A DNA stretch of 43,944 bases, taken from NCBI GenBank assembly GCA_012735195.1, contig JAAYIC010000076.1, forward strand, positions 1 through 43,944, in the 5' to 3' direction. A program made the translations under genes and the position numbers. The DNA is from Bacillota bacterium. GTDB lineage: Bacteria > Bacillota > UBA4882 > UBA10575. The notes under the pieces were generated by a model, which was not told the DNA's origin, ran no database searches, and saw only the letters and a list, made by a program, of their open reading frames with translations. Within the stretch, counting starts at the first letter, position 1. Each line of letters starts with the position of its first letter. Shown piece after piece: positions 1 to 42,893 of this stretch.

Positions 1-420
1 AAGGGCATGCAGGCGTTGACCCCTTTACCGCGGAGACCCAAGTGCGTGGGAAGAGTATCGCTCCGACTACGGCTTGGGATTAAACCTGCAACCGGTTAGC
101 TACATAATCGGTGCAGTGTAGCCTGCCTTGAGGTGAAGCGCGGAGGAGACGGGGAACCGGGACGATATTTTCCAGGCCAGAGAATACCGTCCTTTGCCGT
201 TCGAAACCCGCTTTGCAAAAGAGGCTAGCAGCGGCCGGTTTCTGCCGGGGAAAACCCCTAGGCTATTCCCGGGCCGGGACATCTGTTGGGGATTGCGGTA
301 TGAGCTAAGTGGTGATCCAGTTTTACTTGAGGCGACTCGGTAAGACGGTCATAAAGGGAAACCGCCGGAACGGCAACGTTCCGGAGACCGTCGGGAAAAC
401 CTACTGGACCTTAAGCCATA
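1..420 (+). ncRNA. ole: OLE RNA, 3' portion (5' end outside window)
   Basis: No protein reads through this stretch on the plus strand, yet it is dense with pairing. A 7-bp helix at 344-350/386-392 (GACGGTC/GACCGTC) encloses a perfect 8-bp hairpin at 365-372/377-384 capped by a GCAA tetraloop (373-376). It lies directly upstream of a gene I recognise as oapA, followed by dxs. From family knowledge, OLE (ornate, large, extremophilic) RNA is about 600 nt, occurs mainly in anaerobic or extremophilic Bacillota within isoprenoid operons, and forms a membrane complex with OapA. About 400 nt would be inside the window. The assignment rests on context plus structure; I have not matched the Rfam model. 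The 3' end is uncertain because no terminator separates it from oapA, so the RNA is probably processed from a longer transcript. Confidence 0.75.
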
Positions 421-1068
421 ATGTTTACTCAACAGGTGACCTTCCTCCCCAATATTTACCGTTATTTTTGTAGGAGGCCATTTCGCTTACCCTTTTTTGC
501 ACGTCGGGTATTTGGGGTCGGATTGCTGACCTTTTTTTTATCCATGGCGTTTTCGACTTTTTTCCGGTTGACCCGGGCGGTGGTGCCATTCTGGATTTCC
601 ACCGGTGTTTTATTGATTGTGGTCCTGTTGGGGATTATCTTTGACATAGTCGGTACTGCCGTTACCGCTGCTCAGGAAGCCCCTTTTCATGCGATGGCCA
701 GTGACCGCGTTTCCGGTGCCCGGACAGCCATTGCGCTGGTGCGGAACGCCGACAAGGTTGCCAGTTTTTGCAATGATGTGGTAGGTGATATCTGCGGTAC
801 CGTAAGCGGGGCAATTGGTTCCGCGCTGGTGATCGATCTGGTTATCCATTACCGGGTCTTTCGTTTTGAAGATTTGCTCTCCATAATCATGGTTAGTTTG
901 GTTGCCGCTGTGACCGTGGGCGGTAAGGCTTGGGGAAAGGCCTTCGCGATTCAGCGGGCCAATTTCATTATTTTGCAGGTGGGAAAGGCTTTTGAAAAAG
1001 GAAGAAGGTTGCTTGGTCTAAAGGAGAATAATAAGAGAAAAAGAGTACCTAGAAGACAGCTTGGATGA
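421..1068 (+). CDS. oapA: OLE-associated membrane protein OapA
   Basis: Integral membrane protein expected to bind OLE RNA and hold it at the membrane. It has about four hydrophobic segments (roughly residues 31-48, 55-75, 130-143, 152-167) and a very basic C-terminus (KENNKRKRVPRRQ). The central stretch after the second segment (GTAVTAAQEAPFHAMASDRV, then RNADKVASFCNDVVGDICG) is what I recognise as the conserved OapA core, related to the DUF21 region of CNNM/CorC-type proteins. Downstream dxs starts 13 nt after the stop. The start is uncertain: ATG421 has no clear ribosome site, whereas a strong AGGAGG lies inside the frame at 472-477 without a well-placed ATG/GTG/TTG after it. The first 30 residues, rich in Arg, may therefore be over-extended. 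Confidence 0.8.
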   Translation: MFTQQVTFLPNIYRYFCRRPFRLPFFARRVFGVGLLTFFLSMAFSTFFRLTRAVVPFWISTGVLLIVVLLGIIFDIVGTAVTAAQEAPFHAMASDRVSGARTAIALVRNADKVASFCNDVVGDICGTVSGAIGSALVIDLVIHYRVFRFEDLLSIIMVSLVAAVTVGGKAWGKAFAIQRANFIILQVGKAFEKGRRLLGLKENNKRKRVPRRQLG

Positions 1069-17789: not shown

Positions 17790-18671
17790 TTATTCTTTTG
17801 CATCTTCTTCATAAGGCTCAATATGAGCTATTACCTGTGAATTTTTTTTAAATTTTGCCTTGATCGCATCTTCTATATCATGAGCCAGTTTATGTGCTTT
17901 TTCAACATCCAATTTTGAATTGACTTCTATGTGCAAGTCAATATATAAATTATTGATACTGCCTCTACTTCTGATATTATGAACGCCTTTAACATCTTCA
18001 AAGCTCAGGACAACATCGCTTATTTCTTTTGCATTAATAGCCACACCGTCAAGAAGGACATCGCTATTTTCTTTAAAAATTTCATAGCCGGCGTGAATTA
18101 TAAAACCGGCCACGATCAATGAAACAATAGGGTCGGTTTCCGGGGGAAGCCCTAATTTGACACCGGCGAGGGTTATCAAAACCCCTAATGAGATATAAAT
18201 ATCACTTCTTGTGTGCATTGAGTCGGAGATAAGGATTTGACTGTTAAGTTCTTTTCCCTTTCTATACTCTACAACAGAAACAACGATATTAACAATTAAA
18301 GTAAAAATCAGGACGATAAGGCTTTCGATTGTTATTTCCGGAATTACTGGTTCTATAAATCTTTTAACTGCATCCAAAATCACCTTTCCGGCAGCAAGAA
18401 AAAGCATGACCGCTATAAATAAACCCGCTAATGTTTCATATTTGGTATGTCCATAAGGATGGTCCTCATCTTCAGGTTTGGCGGCAAAATGAATGCCAAT
18501 CAACCCGACAATGTTGGAAGAACCATCCGAAAGTGAATGGAATCCGTCTGCGGTCATGCTCGCGCTTTTAATAATTGAACCGATGATAATTTTCAATGCA
18601 GCTACGAGTAGATTAGCCAGCAAAATAAGGAAAAGAACTCTTTGTATTCTATGGAAATTGTTTTTTTTCAT
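17790..18671 (-). CDS. Cation diffusion facilitator (CDF) metal efflux protein
   Basis: Divalent metal/proton antiporter of the inner membrane, about 293 residues. Six transmembrane helices occupy residues ~10-195. The metal-site residues lie in TADGFHSLSDGSSNIVG (helix 2) and SDSMHTRSDIYIS (helix 5, HxxxD). DEDHPYGHTKYE is the conserved CDF loop, and a C-terminal cytoplasmic metallochaperone-like domain follows (DVKGVHNIRSRG, YIDLHIEV). The gene is clearly AT-richer than its neighbours, suggesting acquisition. ATG18671 (MKKNNFHRIQRV) has GGGGGG upstream; ATG18716 is an alternative. The long structured leader upstream implies metal-responsive control. Substrate (Zn, Co, Ni, Fe or Mn) cannot be read from the motifs alone. 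Confidence 0.92.
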   Translation of the reverse strand: MKKNNFHRIQRVLFLILLANLLVAALKIIIGSIIKSASMTADGFHSLSDGSSNIVGLIGIHFAAKPEDEDHPYGHTKYETLAGLFIAVMLFLAAGKVILDAVKRFIEPVIPEITIESLIVLIFTLIVNIVVSVVEYRKGKELNSQILISDSMHTRSDIYISLGVLITLAGVKLGLPPETDPIVSLIVAGFIIHAGYEIFKENSDVLLDGVAINAKEISDVVLSFEDVKGVHNIRSRGSINNLYIDLHIEVNSKLDVEKAHKLAHDIEDAIKAKFKKNSQVIAHIEPYEEDAKE

Positions 18672-18787
18672 AGAAAAACCCCCCGCTAGGGACTGACTCT
18701 CTTTTTCTCCTCGCATTTATTCACAGTATTCATTCGCACCTCTTTGGGTGATATGAGCATACTGTGTTACCATAATATATTTCTATT

Positions 18788-18910
18788 AATAAAAAAATCC
18801 ATGAGCCCTGTTTAATGCAATGTCCCATGGATTTGATGATATCCACTGTCTTATAAAAAGACCCGGCCGCACACGTATTGAACCGTGTCGCCTGTTCATT
18901 TGCATATTAT
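18788..18910 (-). promoter_or_regulatory. Riboswitch-like leader with terminator upstream of CDF gene
   Basis: On the minus strand the leader can form a four-helix junction. P1 is ATGCAA (18905-18900) with TTGCAT (18820-18815). P2 is ACACG (18888-18884) with CGTGT (18875-18871). P3 is GTCTT (18862-18858) with AAGAC (18852-18848). P4 is GTGGAT (18846-18841) with ATCCAT (18832-18827). The P4 3' strand also lies in the 5' arm of an intrinsic terminator, AAATCCATG (18834-18826) with CATGGATTT (18803-18795) plus a T run. P4/P1 and the terminator are therefore mutually exclusive. Purine-rich junction pieces (ACAGGC, GACAG, GGGACA, ACAGGGC) recall the Ni/Co (czcD) riboswitch, which regulates CDF genes, but I could not match its consensus. 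Confidence 0.6.
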
Positions 18911-18957
18911 TAGATAAAACTAACATTATTAATTTTTTGTAAACATACTTATAAAAT

Positions 18958-18986
18958 ATTATATTGGTCAATCGTGCAACTGTCAA
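18958..18986 (-). promoter_or_regulatory. Sigma-A promoter of CDF gene
   Basis: Minus-strand TTGACA (18986-18981), exactly 17 nt, then TATAAT (18963-18958): both hexamers perfect. Predicted start is near 18951, giving a leader of about 280 nt before ATG18671. Confidence 0.85.
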
Positions 18987-19200
18987 CAGCAAATAGTTGC
19001 TTATGTGTTTCCTGCGACGGAGCCCTCATCGGGTATATCTGGCTCAACTGGGACGGGGTAGAAAATGAGGTTAGAGAGGCTACAGTTCTTGACACTATCC
19101 TTTATTTTTCTTTAAGTTGCAATAATTTACGGTATAAAGTAATATATAGGTAGCACATACGGGCAAGGAAGCGAAGAAATGGTAGAACGGTGGTGAGAAG
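18987..19200 (+). other. Intergenic region upstream of lipoprotein gene
   Basis: No gene or known RNA recognised. A perfect TTGACA (19089-19094) is followed 17 nt later by the weak TTAAGT, and TATAAA occurs near 19134. Either could start transcription toward the lipoprotein gene. Confidence 0.3.
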
Positions 19201-20121
19201 GTGAAGGACCTTACCAGAGTGGCCTTAGTGACGGTAATTCTTTTATCCGTGTTTTTCTTCGCCTGCCGGCAAGAGAAGGAAGTAGCCGCATTTACATACC
19301 GGGGAATTCTCTTCGAAGGCTTTAACCCGGTGAAACACAAACCCACTCCGGAACTGGCCCGTGGCGTTGAAATGGAGCAGGTTATGATTACCCATACCCA
19401 AATGAGGACTTTGATGGGTATCGTCGATATGCTGGAAAAGGAGAACCTGCTTTACCTTATGGAAATCCCCGGACGGTTTGTCCTCGTAAACTGTCCGTAT
19501 TCTTTTGCCGATAAACCCCAAATGACAATCTATCTTGACCGGCAAAAAATTAATATGGATTATTCCGTAGCCGATGATTGGCAGAACAAATTATCCAAGT
19601 TTACTCCTGGTTTAACCCTTGAAGAGCGGATTTCTCTCCGGGGGGTCCCGAAACTCCCCAACTTGTTGCGTATTATTATTCATGAAGTGGGCCATTTGAT
19701 CGAGTACAAAGTTTTGGGGTTCAGTTGGCAAGGAGAGTTTATTGCCAACGAATTAAACCGGGATTTTGTCGAGATCTCCTGGGATAAGGAGAATAATTGG
19801 CGGGATCGGGAGAAGATCCTCTTACGCCTGGAAACGATCAGGGAAGATGAAGAATTGGTGGAGTTTTTGACCTGGTTTGCCGGGAACTCTTCGTTTTTCA
19901 GTGTATATAGTAGCACGGGAATGACCGAGGATTTTGCTGAAAGCTTTGTTTCTTACTATTTTAAAACCCATTTTGATTATGCGTTACAACTTTTCTACCG
20001 CGGTGAACTGCGCCTTGCCGATCTGACCGCGCCAACCAAGGGAAGAGAAGAAAAGATCGGTTTTATCGCCGGCGTGATGCAGGATCCGGAGTTGTTCGAT
20101 CTGATAAAAAAGGGGAGATGA
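19201..20121 (+). CDS. Lipoprotein with HExxH metallopeptidase motif
   Basis: I recognise no named family. The first 22 residues form a signal peptide ending in a lipobox-like FFFAC, so lipid attachment at Cys22 and an extracytoplasmic location are likely. IIIHEVGHLIEY near residue 160 is a zincin HExxH motif, and MTEDFAESFVSYYF near 243 supplies a candidate third ligand Glu, the pattern of membrane-associated zinc peptidases. Length is 306 aa. GTG19201 follows GAGAAGG. It lies 4 nt before a TRAP-type binding protein, so the two exported proteins are probably co-expressed. Confidence 0.78.
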   Translation: MKDLTRVALVTVILLSVFFFACRQEKEVAAFTYRGILFEGFNPVKHKPTPELARGVEMEQVMITHTQMRTLMGIVDMLEKENLLYLMEIPGRFVLVNCPYSFADKPQMTIYLDRQKINMDYSVADDWQNKLSKFTPGLTLEERISLRGVPKLPNLLRIIIHEVGHLIEYKVLGFSWQGEFIANELNRDFVEISWDKENNWRDREKILLRLETIREDEELVEFLTWFAGNSSFFSVYSSTGMTEDFAESFVSYYFKTHFDYALQLFYRGELRLADLTAPTKGREEKIGFIAGVMQDPELFDLIKKGR

Positions 20122-20125
20122 TGTA

Positions 20126-21160
20126 ATGCGTTGTAAATTTCTCCCGGCTATCCTTGTGGTTTTTCTGTTGGCAAATTTTACGGTATCCGCCCGCGACCCC
20201 TTTATCCTGCGGGTTGCTACGGCGGAGGTTCAGGAGTCGCCGGTTGCGGAGGGGCTCTACAGGTTTAAAGAATTGGTGGAGCGAAGGACCAACGGGAGGA
20301 TAAAGGTCCAGGTATATATGGGCGGTGTCCGCGGGCAGGAGGAGGAGCTGCTTGAGGGGTTGCGCCGCGGGACGGTGGATGCGGTTTTGGTCACGTCCTC
20401 CAAATACAAGGCTCTGGTCCCGGAGATGGAGTTGTTGAGCTTGCCGCTGCTCTTTGCCACCGAAGAGCACTGGCAAGAGGCGTTAAGCGGCTCCCCTGGC
20501 CGACGCCTGGGGGATTTCGCCTTACAACGCCGCCAGGAAGTGGTCATGGGTTATATGACCACAGGTTCCCAGAATATTTTCGCCCGGCGGGATCTGATTA
20601 GCCTCGGCGCATTACGGGGGATGAAGATCAGTGCCGGGTCGTCGCCGTTGGCCCTGGAAGCTTGGCGGGCTTTAGGCCTGGAGCCTATGGTGGTTGCCGA
20701 TTCGGAACTGACCGTCGCCTTGCAGAGCGGCTGGGTGGATGCGGTGGGGAGCAATTTCTTTGATTACAACAGGTTGAAGTTGTATGAGGCTGCCAAATGC
20801 GTGGTCCGGACCTGTCATATGATAAGAGCCTACCCGCTTATTTTAAGCGGAATGGCCTGGGAGCGGATTCCGGCGAATTTCCGTCCGGTGGTGGTCTCCT
20901 GCGGCAGAGAGGCCTGCCTGTGGCAGGCAAGTCGTGCCTTTACCAGAAACAAGGAGATAAACGAGGAGTTGTCACGGAAGTACTGGGTGCGCCCGCTTAA
21001 CCCGACACCGGAGGAGAAGGCGGTTTGGGAAAAACAGATCATTCCTCTGCAAAACAGAGTGGCCAAGCAGTTGGGATTGGAAGATATCCTTCAGGAGATC
21101 CGGGCGATGGCGCCGGTACCAGAGACAGCAAAGGAGAAAGAGAAGGAAGAGAAGGAGTAA
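20126..21160 (+). CDS. Orphan TRAP transporter solute-binding protein (DctP family)
   Basis: 344 aa with a cleavable-type signal peptide (LPAILVVFLLANFTVSA). The DctP fold is visible in LRVATAEVQESPVAEGLYRFKELVERRTNGRIKVQVYMGG, LRRGTVDAVLV, LSLPLLF and VALQSGWVDAVGSNFFDY. In most DctP proteins the segment corresponding to LRGMKISAGSSP reads K-I-R, the Arg that grips the ligand carboxylate; here it is Ser, so the ligand may not be a simple acid. No DctQ/DctM permease genes are nearby. The protein ends in a Lys/Glu-rich tail (KEKEKEEKE). It could be a sensor component or a receptor for a distant permease. Confidence 0.88.
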   Translation: MRCKFLPAILVVFLLANFTVSARDPFILRVATAEVQESPVAEGLYRFKELVERRTNGRIKVQVYMGGVRGQEEELLEGLRRGTVDAVLVTSSKYKALVPEMELLSLPLLFATEEHWQEALSGSPGRRLGDFALQRRQEVVMGYMTTGSQNIFARRDLISLGALRGMKISAGSSPLALEAWRALGLEPMVVADSELTVALQSGWVDAVGSNFFDYNRLKLYEAAKCVVRTCHMIRAYPLILSGMAWERIPANFRPVVVSCGREACLWQASRAFTRNKEINEELSRKYWVRPLNPTPEEKAVWEKQIIPLQNRVAKQLGLEDILQEIRAMAPVPETAKEKEKEEKE

Positions 21161-23020: not shown

Positions 23021-23181
23021 GGTCATCCCCCATTTCCTAAACAGTATAACACTCCTGGAAGCGATTTGGCAACCCTCCCCAGGAAGCATTTTTCACCGGG
23101 CCCGGCATAGAATTAGGACGAGATAAAGATCGTTAGATTACTGCACGATCCTGCCGAACGACAAAGGGGGGGTTGACAAAA

Positions 23182-26007
23182 TTGGCGAAAAGCTGGTGGA
23201 TGATGTCGCCGGAAGAGACCGCAAAAGAGTTGGGCGTCCCATTTCATGGCGCCTTCATGCCGGCCACCGGTCTTACGCCTCAGGAAGCCGCCAGGAGACT
23301 GGGGGTTTTCGGGGAAAACCGTCTGCAGAAAAAAGAGAGATTCTCCCCTTGGCGTCTGTTTTTTTCCGAGTTTGCCGATTTTATGGTTCTGGTGCTGCTG
23401 GGAGCGGTAATCATCTCCGGAGCACTGGGAGAATGGGATGATGCCTTTACGATCCTGGCCATTGTTTTTCTCAACGCAATTTTGGGCTTTGTCCAGGAAT
23501 ATCGGGCGGAACGCTCATTGCAGGCATTAAAAGAGTTGGCGGCCCCACAGGCCCGTGTGATCAGAAGGGGAAAGCTGCAAGTCATCCCCGCAGTGCAGGT
23601 AGTCCCCGGGGACCTGCTGGTCCTTGAGACTGGGGACCGGGTGGCCGCTGATGCGCGTTTGGTGGAAGCCGAAGCCCTGGAAGTGGATGAATCACCGTTG
23701 ACCGGTGAGTCTTTGCCGGTGGCCAAGGAGACGGCGCCGATGAAAGAGAAAAATCCGGGCCTGGGGGAACGGCGGAATATGGTCCAGGCCGGGACAACGG
23801 TTACGCGCGGGCGGGCCAAAGGCCTGGTGGTCGCGACCGGGATGGAGACGGAATTGGGGAAGATCGCCGGGCTTTTGGAGTCTTCCGCCGGCGGTCCCAC
23901 GCCATTACAAAAACGCCTGGACCAGCTGGGCAAAGTCCTAGTTGCCTTCTGCCTTTTTATCTGTGTCTGCGTTGGTTTGCTCGGCCTTTACCGGGGAGAG
24001 AGCTTCCGGAGCATGTTTCTTTCCGCCGTCAGCCTGGCGGTCGCCGCTATCCCCGAAGGGCTGCCGGCGATCGTCACTATTTCCCTGGCGTTAGGGGTCC
24101 AACGGATGATTAAGCGCCAGGTGATTATCAGGCAACTGCCGGCTGTGGAAACCCTGGGTTGCGCCTCGGTCATCTGTTCGGATAAAACCGGGACCCTTAC
24201 CCGGAATCAGATGATGGTGACCGCGGTTTTTTTAAACGGGGAGGAACTCTCCGTTACCGGTAACGGCTTTGCCCCCTGCGGGCGTTTATACTGGCGGCGA
24301 AGACCCTTGTCCCCTCTGACCTCCGGTGCGGCGGTCCGGCCGGCGCCGGCGGCAATGAAAACCGCAGCAGAGCGCGGCGGGGGAGAGGTGAGCTACCCGG
24401 ACGGGGAAGGGTTGCGGCTTTTGCTCAAGACCGGTTTGTTATGTAATAACGCGGTCTTGACTGGAGACGGAGACGGTCCGGACTGGAAGGTGACCGGCGA
24501 CCCCACGGAGGGCGCGTTGCTCGTTTTGGCGCGCAAAGCGGGCCTGACAGGCGGCAAGGCCCGGCGACGGCAGGAGATTCCTTTCACCCCGGAAAGGAAA
24601 AGAATGAGTGTGGTGGTGGAGGAGGGCGGGAAAACAACGCTCTATACCAAAGGCGCCGCCGACCTGCTTTTGGACCTCTCGGACCGGATCCGCTGGCAGG
24701 GGAAGGAGGTGCCTTTGCAGCGGATGCACCGGCGGCTGGTCTTAAGAGCGGTGGAGAGCATGGCAGCCCGGGCCCTGCGGGTGCTGGCCCTGGCCTACCG
24801 CCCGCTGCCAGCTATGGAAAAGGCGGGGGAGGATGAGGAGAAGGACCTGATCTTTCTGGGGCTGGTAGGGATGATTGATCCGCCGCGGCCGGAGGTGAAA
24901 GCGGCGATCCAAACCTGCAAGGAGGCGGGGATCAGGACAGTGATGATTACCGGGGATTTCCCGGGGACCGCCCGGGCGATCGGTGAAGAACTGGGGTTGT
25001 TGCGCCCGGACGGGTTGATCCTGACCGGGGCTCAGCTGGACCGATTATCCGAGGATGAACTGGCCCGGATGATCGACCGGGTTGATATTTTCGCCCGTGT
25101 CAACCCCTACCATAAGCTGCAGGTGGTAAGGGCCTTTAAAAAACAGGGGAAAGTGGTGGCCATGACCGGCGACGGGGTCAATGACGCCCCGGCGGTGAAA
25201 GAGGCCCAAATCGGGGTGGCAATGGGGATCTCCGGTACGGAGGTGACAAAAGAGGCATCGGATATGGTGATTGCCGATGATAATTTCGCCACCATTGTGG
25301 CAGCGGTGGAAGAGGGGCGGGGGATTTACAGTAACATCAAAAAATTCCTCCGTTATCTCTTGGGTTGCAATACAGGGGAGATTATCACCATGTTTCTGGC
25401 GGGCGCGGCCGGGATCCCCTTTCCCCTACTGCCCATCCAGATTCTCTGGACCAACCTGGTGACCGACGGCCTGCCGGCGGTGGCCCTCAGTATGGAGCCG
25501 GCGGAAAAAGAGTTGATGCAGGCGCCGCCGCGGGCGCCGGAAGAAAGCATCTTCAGCCACGGCATGGGCTGGCAGATTTTTTGGCAAGGGGCGGTGATCG
25601 GCCTCAGCACGGTTCTTCTCTTTCTTCTCACCTTATTCCAAGGCGTCACCCTGGCAAAAGCGCGCACCGTGGCCTTTTCCGCCCTGGTCTTTTCCCAGCT
25701 GAGCTACGCCTTTGTTTGCCGCAGTGAGAGTGGGTCTCTCCGGACGGGCAAAACCCGGAAGACCCCCCCGCTGGTGGCGGCGGTACTTTTTTCTGCCTTT
25801 ATGCAATTGTCCGTGGTCTATCTTCCTTTTTTGCAGAGAATTTTCCGTACCGCCCCCCTGGCCTTGGGCGACTGGGTGCGGGTGGCGGGCGCCGCCGTTC
25901 TTTCGTTCCTGGCAACGCCGCTGATGAATGCCGCGCTCGCTCGTGCTGCCGGGAAGAAGTGCGGGACCCGGATGGAAAAACCGCAGGCAGTAGGAGATAC
26001 AGGCTAG
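23182..26007 (+). CDS. P-type Ca2+-transporting ATPase (SERCA-like, P2A)
   Basis: Calcium export pump of the cytoplasmic membrane, 941 aa. Features in order: N-terminal cation-ATPase segment, helices 1-2, actuator domain (DESPLTGES), helix 4 with the Ca site PEGLP ([14 protein letters not shown]), phosphorylation motif SDKTGTLT (Asp about 334), nucleotide domain (KGAADLLL), hinge [21 protein letters not shown], helix 6 [16 protein letters not shown] and C-terminal helices. The PEGLP and N..TD residues are those of Ca2+ pumps rather than heavy-metal pumps. AAAGGGGGGG (23163-23172) is 9 nt before TTG23182, so that TTG is preferred over TTG23173; ATG23200 is less well placed. It is a monocistronic-looking gene divergent from rqcH. 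Confidence 0.93.
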
Positions 26008-42621: not shown

Positions 42622-42893
42622 AATAATAATTCAAAACCGGTGAAGAGGAGTAGTAGGCGGGCGCCCGGAAAGAAGAGAACCGGTGGGTGCTGCGAACCGG
42701 TCCGGAAAACCGCCGAACTCGCCTTGGAGGTGCAGGGGGAAGTGCATACGCATAGTCCCGCGCGTGCGCGCACCTTCTGCCCCGGCCCGGGTTAAAGGCA
42801 ATGAGGGTTTTCCCGCTTGAAGACGGGGGAAACTGAACAGGGTGGTACCGCGGTTATAGAATCGCCCCTGGCTTTTGGAGCCGGGGGTTTTTT
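42622..42893 (+). promoter_or_regulatory. T-box leader, leucine specific (CUC specifier)
   Basis: Classic T-box elements: AGAGAACCGGTGGGTGCTG...AACCGGT distal stem I (about 42673-42700), specifier context GAACTC with CTC (Leu) at 42718-42720, the T-box GGGTGGTACCGCGG (42840-42853) with bulge TGGT (42843-42846) fitting a tRNA-Leu acceptor end with discriminator A, and a terminator CCCCTGGCT/AGCCGGGGG plus T run (42865-42893). Uncharged tRNA-Leu would favour antitermination and leuS expression. Confidence 0.93.

Follow-up and report, generated by a model that had tools for sequence, protein, structure and literature searches.

Introduction

The closest described relative of the RNA considered here is the NiCo (czcD) riboswitch, Rfam family RF02683, for which PMC7689651 and PMC7266159 cite Furukawa et al. 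2015; our description of the class is based on the two citing papers and on Rfam. Members fold into a four-helix junction with conserved GGG and GGGAC guanines, share the 3' strand of their last helix, P4, with a terminator, and precede a gene for a cation diffusion facilitator (CDF) exporter that is switched on by metal. PMC7689651 places G45-G47 and G87-G88 of the Eba RNA at the metal sites of its Co(II)-bound crystal structure. As told in PMC7689651, Ni and Co were proposed as ligands in the original study, with induction by Co and Ni in Clostridium, and the same paper cites Xu and Cotruvo 2020 for a response of the Eba-czcD riboswitch to Fe(II) and for estimates of cellular availability that favor Fe and Mn. 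The yybP-ykoY Mn2+ riboswitch is likewise a metal-sensing leader of metal homeostasis genes, built on a different structure.

The window, by which we mean the whole 43,944-nucleotide stretch of contig JAAYIC010000076.1 (Bacillota bacterium, assembly GCA_012735195.1), contains a leader that an earlier note, made from the sequence alone, had interpreted as a probable metal riboswitch ahead of a cation-efflux gene, perhaps a divergent Ni/Co riboswitch or a new class. Here we report that the element is a typical and well-formed representative of the NiCo (czcD) class, new in sequence and of a kind already described.

Results and Discussion

The element is genuine, and all of its parts lie on the minus strand, which the earlier note had left unnamed. 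A sigma-A type promoter, TTGACA-N17-TATAAT, occupies 18986-18958 with 12 of 12 consensus bases and a 17-base spacer, as perfect as had been claimed, and the same promoter with the same spacer is found at the same-genus locus L026. Counted from a start near 18951 to the CDF ATG at 18671, the leader spans ∼280 nt, again as proposed.

Infernal searches with the NiCo, yybP-ykoY and other metal-riboswitch models had been suggested as a check. When the whole window was scanned with cmscan, RF02683 matched at 18910-18818 (minus strand) over its full length (96 of 96 model positions, 1-96) with a score of 59.0 bits, 22 bits above the gathering cut-off of 37, and an E-value of 3.7e-11. No other riboswitch family matched this element, either at gathering scores over the whole window or in a permissive scan (E up to 5) of the 701 bases from 18500 to 19200, and the yybP-ykoY model in particular gave no hit in either search. 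The permissive scan also returned SCARNA7 and FTX_1 (E of 0.068 and 4.4, respectively), both far under their own gathering scores and taken as chance. The conserved core positions, columns that hardly vary among homologous aptamers, are kept in the window RNA. The first option of the earlier note, a Ni/Co (czcD) riboswitch, was thus the right one, and with the whole model covered and the core intact there is no reason to call the RNA divergent.

In order to examine the junction we mapped the RF02683 structure line onto the window, which places the four helices between 18900 and 18819, and counted pairs through the window in an alignment of 35 homologous aptamers. The alignment was made with MAFFT without structure and so does not lean towards the model; the 35 sequences themselves were collected with the NiCo model. 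The junction is paired in 88.8% of cells, whereas displaced registers reach 25-42%, and changes on both sides occur in 20 of its 26 pairs. Its covariation score is 0.514, as opposed to 0.228 for shuffled controls and at most 0.125 for structures displaced by 1-3 columns. The covariation in homologues that the earlier note had called for is therefore present, and together with the full-length Rfam match (E 3.7e-11) it excludes chance as the origin of the element.

Helix by helix, P1 (18900-18894 with 18824-18819) is paired in 92% of cells, P2 (18892-18865, an outer GGC/GCC, an internal loop and an inner stem) in 84.7% with both-sided changes in 8 of 10 pairs, P3 (18862-18848) in 92.5%, and P4 (18846-18827), whose 3' strand also serves the terminator, in 90% with both-sided changes in 5 of 6 pairs. 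The closed junction of P1-P4 had been recognized earlier, with a P1 (18900-18905/18815-18820, AUGCAA/UUGCAU) that is one base out of register: the family P1 consists of 18900-18897/18819-18822 plus C18894-G18824, and the outer pairs 18902-18905/18815-18818 can extend it only if A18901 is bulged. The 3' strand of P1 overlaps the conserved GGGAC (18826-18822). The window has the unpaired guanines of CCGGG and GGGAC, which vary hardly at all across the 35 sequences and which correspond, by motif rather than by structural superposition, to G45-G47 and G87-G88 of the Eba structure.

The gene downstream (17790-18671, minus strand) encodes a CDF family metal exporter (PF01545, 5.5e-48; PF16916, 2.2e-22; TIGR01297, 7.3e-69), in agreement with the cation-efflux assignment of the earlier note. 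An alternative ATG lies upstream at 18716; homologues start at or near Met 18671. The closest solved relatives of the protein are YiiP/FieF proteins. Site A of the protein, as located by alignment with FieF, reads H-D/H-D (FHSLSD, MHTRSD), as in nearly all homologues examined, in contrast to the D-D/H-D of FieF/YiiP. An H-D/H-D site is of the zinc type in the CDF family and lends no support to iron as the main substrate of the exporter.

The pairing of NiCo RNA and CDF gene recurs in related organisms. A NiCo aptamer stands directly upstream of the gene at 19 of the 30 Bacillota CDF homologue loci scanned, and at none of the archaeal loci scanned. Counting against the NiCo reading, the aptamer is absent at gathering score from the other 11 close Bacillota loci; relaxed filters still gave no NiCo at 8 of these, nor at the same-family homologues L086 and L087, and at two of the 11 (L035 and L047) fewer than 200 bases lie upstream of the gene. 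The genome from which the window derives has a single NiCo match and two CDF genes, the aptamer not being found at the second (L090). A match with E ≤ 0.001 occurs in 24 of 61 related genomes, 19 of them above the cut-off, and in none of 14 control genomes. The next gene after the aptamer in the related genomes is mostly CDF; in three distant relatives (L002, L003 and L004) it is an open reading frame whose N-terminus, judged by eye, resembles cation-transporting P-type ATPases.

Which metal the RNA senses is a separate matter from its class. Fe2+ (or another metal) may be the real ligand here, with the CDF gene serving mainly for iron relief, a serious contender that we place somewhat below an even chance and that, concerning the ligand, leaves the class untouched. 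In its favor are the results of Xu and Cotruvo 2020, given in PMC7689651, on the response of Eba-czcD to Fe(II) and on an estimated availability that favors Fe and Mn. Against it stand the Co/Ni induction in Clostridium that PMC7689651 relates from the first work on the class, and a site A that, being H-D/H-D rather than D-D/H-D, carries no pointer to iron.

The 3' strand of P4 is also part of an intrinsic terminator (18834-18785, minus strand), as the earlier note had claimed. Its stem, AAATCCATGGGAC / GGCTCATGGATTT, is followed by the U tract TTTTATTA and has 12 of 13 positions paired with a predicted stability of -13.8 kcal/mol, with AAATCCATGGGAC running from the 3' strand of P4 into the beginning of the metal-binding strand. 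The stem is among the weaker ones of the set compared, which counts against the switch proposed here. A terminator sharing P4 is found in 19 of 20 leaders (the window and 18 of 19 other CDF-linked leaders), the exception being L027, where the hairpin begins after P4. These leaders fall into two groups with a P4 3' strand of either ATCCAT or ACCTGT, and both the terminator arm (ATGGAT or ACAGGT) and the P4 5' strand (GTGGAT or GCAGG) follow the group; the three strands thus change together in a three-way covariation. Folded by itself, the leader has the terminator form as its predicted minimum free energy structure (z -2.33), as a switch kept off in the absence of metal should. This same fold would also be produced by a plain intrinsic terminator or attenuator that senses no metal, an explanation that we consider highly improbable, as it fails to account for the covarying P1-P3 and for the conserved unpaired guanines. 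Another candidate terminator (18694-18677) coincides in part with the position of the CDF ribosome-binding site (AGGAGG in L026) and has only 3 G-C pairs; we do not believe it.

That the RNA might belong to a new metal-riboswitch class merely resembling NiCo is barely conceivable given the full-length 59-bit match, the conserved core, and an architecture and gene context identical to those of the NiCo class. We conclude that the element is almost certainly a riboswitch of the NiCo (czcD) class that acts through transcription termination and is turned on by metal. It shares with the class the four-helix junction, the GGG and GGGAC guanines, the P4 strand common to the terminator and the CDF gene downstream, and presumably the metal-on logic as well, and differs only in details of sequence such as stem lengths.

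The leader, unlike those of many NiCo relatives, carries a stretch of ∼110 nt between terminator and start codon. Within it a hairpin, CACAGTAT...ATACTGTG (∼18767-18723, minus strand), encloses a short open frame and the ribosome-binding-like sequence GAGGTG. The hairpin is the predicted fold in the window; in L026, the one close relative compared, its sequence is partly kept and it is not the predicted fold. That this hairpin provides the NiCo switch with a second, translational or protein-mediated, layer of control is in our view very unlikely. We also considered and rejected a conserved leader peptide (ATGAATACTGTGAATAA...) downstream of the terminator, as its frame ends differently in L026 and is probably due to chance.

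The promoter, aptamer, alternative terminator, conservation, covariation and CDF gene, as read from the sequence and its comparison with homologues, suggest the following scheme. RNA polymerase would initiate near 18951 and synthesize the aptamer, 18910-18818. Once free transition metal is plentiful enough (Co2+, Ni2+ or, according to later work on the class, Fe2+), ions would bind cooperatively at the CCGGG and GGGAC guanines, the four-helix junction would close and the P4 3' strand would be retained in P4; with the junction so stabilized the terminator could not form and the exporter would be transcribed. Without metal the P4 3' strand would instead pair with the downstream arm (end ∼18788), forming the terminator and leaving the CDF gene untranscribed. 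The mutually exclusive junction and terminator proposed in the earlier note are borne out by these data, and metal binding, the identity of the metal and the direction of switching, as drawn from what is known of the class (PMC7689651, PMC7266159), would complete the picture.

Several other features were seen elsewhere in the window. The region 1-1068 (plus strand) opens with an OLE RNA (RF01071, 331.7 bits) that is truncated by the left end of the window, so that its 3' part remains. A hydrophobic 215-residue open reading frame at 421-1068 (plus strand) comes after the OLE RNA, is followed by a dxs-like frame and may, judging by its position, be the OLE-associated protein OapA. A T-box leader at 42631-42872 (plus strand) scores 94.1 bits, narrowly above its gathering score of 93. 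At 19201-20121 (plus strand) a lipoprotein-like frame with an HEVGH motif has a sole, weak Pfam match, PF07737, with 20.3 bits under the curated cut-off of 27.4, so that probably no more than a metalloprotease fold of the zincin-like kind is indicated. The frame after it, 20126-21160, is a DctP-type solute-binding protein. A frame resembling, by eye, a cation-transporting P-type ATPase is found at 23173-26007 (plus strand), ∼4-5 kb from the riboswitch and on the opposite strand.

Conclusions

By analogy with the class, the switch described here most likely activates a metal-ion exporter in response to an accumulation of cobalt, nickel or possibly iron. The instance extends the known range of NiCo riboswitches by one uncharacterized genome and is routine by itself. 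The ∼20 leaders linked to CDF genes, in which P4 and the terminator clearly covary, form a set that could serve to test Ni/Co against Fe sensing.
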